A DNA stretch of 64,000 nucleotides from an uncultured Clostridia bacterium (GTDB lineage: Bacteria; Bacillota; Clostridia; Lachnospirales; CAG-274), in the NCBI GenBank assembly GCA_947630725.1, contig CANRIS010000009.1, positions 23,519 to 87,518 of the forward strand, written 5' to 3'. Positions within the stretch are counted from its first letter, which is position 1. Each line of letters starts with the position of its first letter. The notes below the pieces were generated by a model. That model saw only the letters and a program-made list of their open reading frames with translations, searched no databases and was not told the DNA's origin. This document shows positions 11,521-54,220 of the stretch, piece after piece. Made by a program: the position numbers and the translations under genes.

Positions 11521-11628
11521 GGGACGGGGCGGCGGATTTTGCCGAAGGCAAAATCCTGCCCCTGCCGCCGAAGGCGGCAGGGGCGCTCTGAAAATGCCGA
11601 AGGCATTTTCAGAGCGCCGCCCCGTCCC
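11521..11628. repeat. Perfect nested palindrome: four-way-junction (cloverleaf) element
   Basis: A 13-bp outer stem, GGGACGGGGCGGC with its exact complement, encloses three consecutive perfect hairpins of 10, 11 and 14 bp (11534-11556, 11559-11583, 11585-11615). All three are capped by the same GCC-GAA-GGC triloop, and only three bases are unpaired at the junction (TG and C). The element is far more GC-rich than its surroundings. It lies between the tuf terminator and the ispF promoter, so it is probably not part of either mRNA. The predicted small ORFs here are by-products of the palindromes. It may be a REP/MITE-like element or a cruciform-forming protein-binding site; the function is unknown. 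Confidence 0.85.
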
Positions 11629-44563: not shown

Positions 44564-44592
44564 ATTTTAACACCAACTTAACAATAAAACAA
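44564..44592 (-). promoter_or_regulatory. Promoter of the Na/Pi cotransporter gene
   Basis: On the minus strand TTGTTT and TAAAAT are separated by 17 bp, about 90 nt before the gene start. No recognisable PhoP box. Confidence 0.55.
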
Positions 44593-44676
44593 GCTAAAAA
44601 TAAAATTTTGCTCTAAACTGTCAAAAAAGTATATTTACTTATAATAAGAAAAATATTCGACAAATATATTATATAT

Positions 44677-45014
44677 AGCGTCGCAGACTTTAATCCGCAG
44701 GTAGTGTCCGAAAGATGTCGGATTGCCCGAAGGGCAACTTTTCCGTAAGGAAAAGCACTGAGCAATGAGCTTTGCCCGTCCTCAGCACGTTTGCCTACGG
44801 CAAACGCCGCCTTTCGCTCACGCTCAGGCGTTCGGATTTTCTTCCGATGCCAGAGGAATAAATTTCAATTTGCGAAAAAACGCAGTTTTTGGAATAAATT
44901 GAAATTTATATTCCTTTATCCAAATGAAGTCGCTTACCTTGCCCGGCACGCACATTTGGCCTCATCAAAATGCGGCTGCATTTTGATGACAGCGTGTCGA
45001 TTTTTCGACACGCT
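44677..45014. repeat. Mosaic hairpin-array repeat, copy A
   Basis: A non-coding array of palindromes: TTGCCC-GAA-GGGCAA, CTTTTCC-GTAA-GGAAAAG, GTTTGCC-TAC-GGCAAAC, a long AT-rich hairpin starting AGGAATAAATTTCAATT, CCAAATG/CATTTGG, CATCAAAATGC/GCATTTTGATG and AGCGTGTCGA/TCGACACGCT. Three blocks are shared with copy B at 53930-54220: module 1 (44677-44702), module 2 (44702-44780) and module 3 (44853-45014, about 97% identical). Modules 1 and 2 are in the opposite order in copy B. The part 44781-44852 is unique to this copy. This array fills most of the 1079-nt gap between the Na/Pi gene and the thrS leader. Confidence 0.85.
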
Positions 45015-45119
45015 GAAGCCAAAAATAAAATTTTGCTCCTATTTTGGCGTATAAAGGAGCCGCCTGCACGCTTTTGCGCCCGAAAAGGCATATTTGTCGA
45101 AGGTATTGAAAATTCAACC

Positions 45120-45147: not shown

Positions 45148-45332
45148 AAAGAAAGTAAATCTGAGATAAGGACACGTCCGATCTTTTACGGAATAACAGA
45201 GAGAGCCTGCGGGTGAAACGGCTCATTCACGATTTTTTCGGATACCGCCTTTGAGAGGCGCCAATAACGCCCGTAGGGTTCTGCGTTAAAGAACACCGCC
45301 TTTAAAAAGGGTGGAAACGAGCAGTATTTAAC

Positions 45333-45479
45333 AGACAAGTAAGTCCCCCGCCTCTTTAGGCGGTGGGTACTTACTGTTGTATTCGGTGGGAGATGCAAGC
45401 TCCCATCCGAATACAAAGGCTTCATCAGAAGCCGTCGGTTATGAGCGCGAAGCGTAAGCGGAGTGCGAATATCATTGAC
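45333..45479 (+). mobile_element. 147-nt IS200/IS605-like non-autonomous element, copy A (in thrS T-box)
   Basis: The element starts just 3' of TTTAAC (45327-45332) and ends in TTGAC. It folds into strong hairpins: AGTAAGT...ACTTACT with an inner CCCCCGCC/GGCGGTGGG (45338-45375), TGTATTCGG/CCGAATACA with TGGGAG/CTCCCA (45379-45415) and GGCTTC-ATCA-GAAGCC. It is identical in length and sequence to copy B (52604-52750) apart from base 1 and a 13-nt block (45439-45451). The junction rules and palindromes resemble IS200/IS605-family ends (TTTAA(C) targets, TTGAC right ends). No transposase is inside. The ORF 45186-45497 on the other strand is a by-product. An omega-RNA/TnpB-derived remnant is possible. 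Confidence 0.6.
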
Positions 45480-45492
45480 AACAAACTCTCGT

Positions 45493-45522
45493 CCCATAGG
45501 CTATGGCTTGTGGGCATTTTTT
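45493..45522 (+). terminator. T-box terminator hairpin of thrS
   Basis: CCCATAGGC (45493-45501) pairs with GCTTGTGGG (45506-45514), nine pairs including G-U, with loop TATG, followed by a six-T run. Its 5' CCC is also the 3' strand of the antiterminator, the classical mutually exclusive arrangement. Confidence 0.8.
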
Positions 45523-52585: not shown

Positions 52586-52603
52586 CTTATACCGATATTT
52601 AAC

Positions 52604-52750
52604 CGACAAGTAAGTCCCCCGCCTCTTTAGGCGGTGGGTACTTACTGTTGTATTCGGTGGGAGATGCAAGCTCCCATCCGAATACAAAGGCTTCATCAGA
52701 AGCCGTCGGGTAGAGATACATAGCGTAAGCGGAGTGCGAATATCATTGAC
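52604..52750 (+). mobile_element. 147-nt IS200/IS605-like non-autonomous element, copy B
   Basis: Begins 3' of TTTAAC (52598-52603) and ends in TTGAC, as in copy A. All hairpins and 133 of 147 positions outside base 1 and the 52710-52722 block are identical to copy A, so the transposition or copying was recent. It separates the sugar-binding lipoprotein gene from the BofC-like gene. On the minus strand it is open in one frame, which explains the false N-terminal extension of the 51971-52795 ORF. Confidence 0.6.
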
Positions 52751-53871: not shown

Positions 53872-53929
53872 AAAATTCTCCTTTCCCCGAAAAAAGTTTT
53901 TTGCATTGAAAAACACTGATAGTGTCCGA

Positions 53930-54220
53930 AAGATGTCGGATTGCCCGAAGTCCAACTTTTCCGCAAGGAAAAGCACCGAGCATGAGCCTTGCCTGTCCGA
54001 AGAATAAATACCTGAGAAGCGTCGCAGACTTTAATCCGCAGGGTGAGCTTTGCCCACCCGAGGAATAAATTTCAATTTGCGAAAAAACGCAGTTTTTGGA
54101 ACAAATTGAAATTTATATTCCTTTATCCAAATGAAGTCGCCGGCTTGCCCGGCACGCACATTTGGCCTCATCAAAATGCGGCTGCATTTTGATGAAAGCG
54201 TGTCGATTTTTCGACACGCT
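53930..54220. repeat. Mosaic hairpin-array repeat, copy B
   Basis: Shares three modules with copy A but in the order 2-1-3: module 2 (53930-53999), module 1 (54018-54043), module 3 (54060-54220). In module 2 the first hairpin is broken (TTGCCCGAAGTCCAA) while the next keeps its stem with a changed loop (CCGCAAGG). Module 3 ends exactly at the stop codon of the PBP gene (54220-54222), so its final hairpin AGCGTGTCGA/TCGACACGCT is the first structure in the PBP 3' end and may act as its terminator. Confidence 0.85.

Follow-up and report, generated by a model that had tools for sequence, protein, structure and literature searches.

The two hairpin arrays in the stretch of DNA analyzed here (64,000 nucleotides, hereafter the window) are copies of a small mobile element (MITE), not members of a shuffled REP family. 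We consider it probable, at roughly 0.85, that they are non-autonomous IS1182-type MITE copies, mobilized in trans, inserted at transcription terminators with duplication of the whole hairpin, and carrying a structured interior. The original prediction had placed the arrays at 44677-45014 and 53930-54220, and we confirmed both at these positions. The third module that it described as common to the two is 98-99% identical (84 + 77 nt) and contains hairpins in series; a 25-mer and a 60-nt three-hairpin unit are also shared, far above chance. The arrays are thus real, but their extent was underestimated. Side-by-side comparison of the copies showed that each reaches about 60 nt further left than the predicted start, to CAGACTGTCAAAAAA, and copy 1 occupies 44614-45015, flanked at either end by a 23-bp duplication.

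The arrays represent a MITE of roughly 265-400 bp, within an overall length range of 200-400 bp for the element, with ends CAGACTGTC(A/G)AAAAA and TTTTTCGACACGCTG; its right boundary is the hairpin ending in TTTTTCGACACGCTG. The terminal inverted repeats are imperfect (CAGACTGTCAAAAAA versus CAGCGTGTCGAAAAA, about 12 of 15 positions). The copies contain no spanning or internal transposase open reading frame, and visual inspection of the left end revealed no obvious conserved internal promoter. Copy 1 (402 bp, plus strand) has ends matching the family consensus. It starts with the left end TAAACTGTCAAAAAA (44614-44628, consensus CAGACTGTCAAAAAA), followed on the same strand by the conserved 25-nt core AGCGTCGCAGACTTTAATCCGCAGG (44677-44701) and an accessory three-hairpin unit (44702-44761; TCCGA..TCGGA, TTGCCC..GGGCAA, and CTTTTCC..GGAAAAG) that is present or absent among copies and occurs in tandem in loci L047-L049. 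A second three-hairpin unit (44781-44853), found in some copies only, is inverted, with the unit architecture on the minus strand. The plus-strand segment at 44853-44989 comprises GAGGA and hairpins A (44853-44914), F (44920-44959), and H3 (44962-44989), and the terminal hairpin CAGCGTGTCGATTTTTCGACACGCTG (44990-45015, plus strand) forms the right end.

The element inserts at the stop signals of genes, copying the whole terminator hairpin. MITE insertions are flanked by duplicated, locus-specific, complete terminator-like hairpins of 16-44 bp. A flanking duplication scoring at least 15 was found for 79 of 177 cores, drawn from the genome that contains the window and from related genomes, versus 0.6% of mismatched left/right pairs. 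Counted a second way, whole palindromes are repeated at the flanks of 79 of the 116 insertions with recognizable ends, and the other 37 showed no duplication. For copy 1, the flanks read AAGC(T/C)AAAAATAAAATTTTGCTC, 23 bp per side: the imperfect terminator-like palindrome AAGCTAAAAATAAAATTTTGCTC at 44591-44613 pairs with AAGCCAAAAATAAAATTTTGCTC at 45016-45038, and the two are identical at 22 of 23 positions. At locus L241, AATTAAGATTTGCGTAAGGAATATACGCAAATCTTAATT occurs twice, around a 242-bp element. One insertion has a natural empty counterpart: the terminator AATAAAAGGGTATTTATACCCTTTTA stands alone at the uninterrupted locus in genome G208, and the related genome G020 has two copies of it around a 240-bp element (L281). 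For the window copy, the search for an empty site found the neighboring gene conserved in the genus, but the neighborhood was not syntenic. Gene context agrees with this target choice. Of the insertions, 41 have genes called to the left and right; these genes are convergent in 16 cases, tandem in 24, and divergent in 1, as expected if the element inserts at terminators. Orientation relative to host genes was set aside as a feature, as the bias is weak (17 opposite versus 7 same).

For 13 of the 79 pairs of flanking duplications, the right copy is closer to the reverse complement of the left copy than to the left copy itself, and in L058, L213, L219, and L325 the terminator loop is clearly inverted between the two while the stems are conserved. 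These inverted loops may reflect handling of the hairpin at insertion or later template switching.

IS1182-family copies with the left end of the MITE are present alongside it in three genomes: that of the window (G000), G011, and G012. In G012, an intact 475-residue transposase aligns with NF033551 along its length (E=1e-124; score 417 bits, cut-off 270). The ends of this IS are CAGTCTGTCAAAAAA and TTATTGACAGACTG, an identical 25-bp hairpin, ACCGCCGCATTTATAATGCGGCGGT, stands on both sides of it, and a MITE adjoins it with the same 25-bp hairpin in between. The IS in G011 starts with the same left end, and its first 124 residues match an IS1182-family transposase; G000 has several decayed, seemingly broken IS copies with the exact CAGACTGTCAAAAAA end. 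The right ends are less alike, as CAGCGTGTCG of the MITE and CAGTCTGTCA of the IS differ at several positions. The IS is likely the mobilizer, as it occurs in the same genomes as the MITE, shares its ends, and duplicates hairpins in the same way; this assignment is read from shared ends and shared target handling.

A different transposase could instead move a BOX-like element, with the IS sharing its ends and target choice by chance. No IS1182 transposase was detected, with an N-terminal query against draft genomes, in the element-bearing G001, G002, G010, and G015, and pneumococcal BOX elements are likewise modular and nested (PMC10969869). Against this, the 15-nt end CAGACTGTCAAAAAA is exactly the same in MITE and IS, and the IS in G012 makes an identical whole-hairpin duplication, so we regard a non-IS1182 mobilizer as unlikely.

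The original prediction had instead proposed palindromes of the REP/BIME type, spread by a RAYT (TnpA-REP) and building arrays in which modules 1 and 2 were swapped. REP/BIME sequences are indeed intergenic palindromes in many copies, as is this hairpin-rich element, and the genome encodes three Y1_Tnp proteins. However, these three are its only Y1 transposases, and by inspection they read as IS200-type TnpA, with no unit-like hairpins seen beside them; no RAYT was identified. The copies also have defined ends with imperfect inverted repeats, which an IS1182-family element in the same genomes shares. Their targets are duplicated as whole hairpins, a feature not expected of REP elements. Module order is likewise not reshuffled. 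A token map of the G000 copies gave a colinear order of left end, core, (unit), P1, (inverted unit), A, F, H3, and right end, which rules out module shuffling; a single copy, L007, has a different arrangement. The REP/RAYT reading is therefore largely refuted, and we give it very little weight.

The G000 copies vary in the presence or absence of the units, some are truncated, and some have two cores and a left block that is repeated. The two-core form is common and is intact in L008, L011, L017, and L018. Window copy 2 (53920-54220, plus strand, L015) is such a variant from which the left end and the first core have been lost, with the module string U-u2-P1-C-P1-A-F-f-H3-E3, so the apparent swap is the product of duplication and loss. 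Its remaining core lies at 54018-54042 and its P1 hairpin, GGGTGAGCTTTGCCCACCC, at 54041-54059 (both plus strand), the latter a covarying variant of GGACGAGCTTTGCCCGTCC; we found no flanking duplication for this copy. By reading, the ~60-nt three-hairpin units lie between the core and P1, within P2 or beyond it, and within the loop of a later hairpin, also inverted and in tandem. In L026 and L034, the core alone forms tandem 31-nt repeats, about four in L026.

The family is dispersed through its genome (2.9 Mb, 83 contigs). A search with the first array returned ~45 separate related places, of which ~20 are nearly full-length and 80-97% identical, and the 25-mer AGCGTCGCAGACTTTAATCCGCAGG gave 62 matches with at most three mismatches versus 0 for the reversed control. 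A simple history of duplication plus deletion, which the original prediction had named as part of what would refute it, accounts for the order through partial tandem duplication and truncation but not for ~45 copies rather than two. Derivation of both window copies from a single local duplication followed by deletion, to which their >95% identical third module might have pointed, is refuted by the locus-specific flanking duplications at these ~45 places and by relatives in other genera and families. The original prediction was right that the family is dispersed genome-wide. The cloverleaf at 11521-11628, which had been included, belongs to another family: it is a different, GC-rich palindrome with a 14-bp outer stem enclosing three perfect hairpins, has no sequence match to the MITE, and is related to ~6 loci in the genome, two of which adjoin MITE copies (L016, L029).

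The 25-nt core is found at 100% identity in other genera too. A covariance model of the core and P1, used to scan 295 genomes drawn from the order, found the pair in 65 of them, representing at least four of its families and with up to ~65 matches in a single genome. In the second large bacterial family (f17), the copies share these ends and duplicate whole hairpins likewise, but their 5' hairpin is longer. We did not detect the element in the sampled genomes of genus g6 or in five of nine genomes of its own genus g1 (G003-G006 and G008), a patchiness expected of a mobile element. Carriage by phage was considered and dropped, as the element is on just one contig of the viral collection.

We propose that an IS1182-family transposase works in trans on the ends CAGACTGTC(A/G)AAAAA and TTTTTCGACACGCTG and targets an intrinsic transcription terminator, probably recognized as an extruded hairpin or cruciform. 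Joining would take place at the two bases of the hairpin, in which case gap repair would duplicate the whole terminator (16-44 bp). With a terminator copy left on each side, insertion at the 3' ends of genes would do little damage, which would explain the high copy numbers. Several positions would have gained ~60-nt three-hairpin units, and the variants in the window would stem from partial tandem duplication and loss of ends.

In ISfinder, the direct repeats given for IS1182 reach ~60 bp. The closest mechanistic comparison is with IS1272/TnSha1 of the IS1182 family, which targets terminator hairpins without a primary sequence consensus and is reported to make a blunt cut within the stem and to delete part of the hairpin, duplicating nothing (PMC4923244). 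Other IS1182 members target palindromes, according to Siguier et al. 2015 as cited in PMC4923244. IS1272/TnSha1 and the IS partner described here have the same transposase family (NF033551) and the same terminator-hairpin targets, but the hairpin is reportedly deleted in part there, whereas here it is duplicated completely, as an empty site proves for one insertion. In Methanosarcina acetivorans, IS1182-derived MITEs (partners of ISMac2) are 160-169 bp long, with inverted repeats of 25-26, direct repeats of 4 or 0, and 7-14 copies (PMC3852290). These are also short, non-autonomous IS1182-type elements; in contrast, ours has palindromic direct repeats of 16-44 bp, a length of 200-400 bp, a structured, covarying interior, and an order-wide family. 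BOX modules vary in repeat number. BOX, RUP, and SPRITE of Streptococcus pneumoniae are intergenic and MITE-like; these modular repeats form stable secondary structures and are found inserted in each other (PMC10969869). Their modular, nested style is similar, but their sequences, ends, and host are different, and in the limited literature consulted we did not find IS1182-type ends with whole-terminator duplication described for BOX. We class the element as an IS1182-type MITE whose new features are whole-terminator duplication, a structured covarying interior, and order-wide spread, although published precedent for whole-hairpin duplication may exist. Together with the empty site, it offers a clear sequence record of a transposase duplicating a complete transcription terminator on insertion, which bears on the use of hairpin targets by DDE transposases and on the low-harm spread of mobile DNA.

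The interior consists of the core, P1, GAGGA, P2, and terminal hairpins, and its folded core is preserved by selection. The segment AGCGTCGCAGACTTTAATCCGCA-[P1]-GAGGA is retained from genus to genus, but P1 itself varies in sequence. All 8 of the 8 P1 pairs show changes on both sides, and 92.7% of cells are paired versus 70.2 +/- 1.9 in shuffles; the covariation score of 0.763 compares with 0.328 when shuffled and at most 0.234 in slid versions. For P2, the stem was assessed in one sub-type, where 99.7% of it is paired and the number of double-changed cells is 95, versus 24.4 +/- 3.5 in shuffles. This covariation in P1 and P2, spread across genomes, indicates that the fold is real. The fold has no credible match to a known RNA family: with cmscan, the window gave no match at the Rfam gathering score, and 15 element loci gave sub-threshold matches only, the best being SSRC8_2 at 25.9 bits versus a gathering score of 72. 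A conserved structure without a credible Rfam match is thus being spread by MITEs as their cargo, and a genome may contain dozens of copies of it.

Wobble pairs did not yield a case for an RNA read from one strand. P2 has 122 G.U versus 1 A.C on the plus strand, 44 of these G.U at one fixed pair, and favors the plus strand; P1 has 18 A.C versus 0 G.U, pointing to the minus strand, and the core hairpin GCAGA..TCCGC has one A.C as well. Tentatively, and with more doubt than confidence, we suggest that the interior could be a functional structured RNA outside Rfam, carried by IS1182-type MITEs across the order (Clostridia-like bacteria), read, through insertion at terminators, within the 3' ends of many transcripts, and perhaps acting on mRNA ends or termination.

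Two features lie just downstream of copy 1. A T-box-like leader at 45154-45358 (RF00230, E=4e-5, below the gathering score) is located upstream of a thrS-like gene at 45503. Between the T-box motif and this gene is a 117-nt repeat (45325-45441) that is 98% identical to 52596-52712. Elsewhere in the genome, an IS1182-family IS abuts the CCCGCC..GGCGGG hairpin of another repeat, at ~803 in L134 and ~1585 in L133 (G000 contigs C11 and C53), and the repeat beside the IS at these loci resembles the one at 45325-45441.
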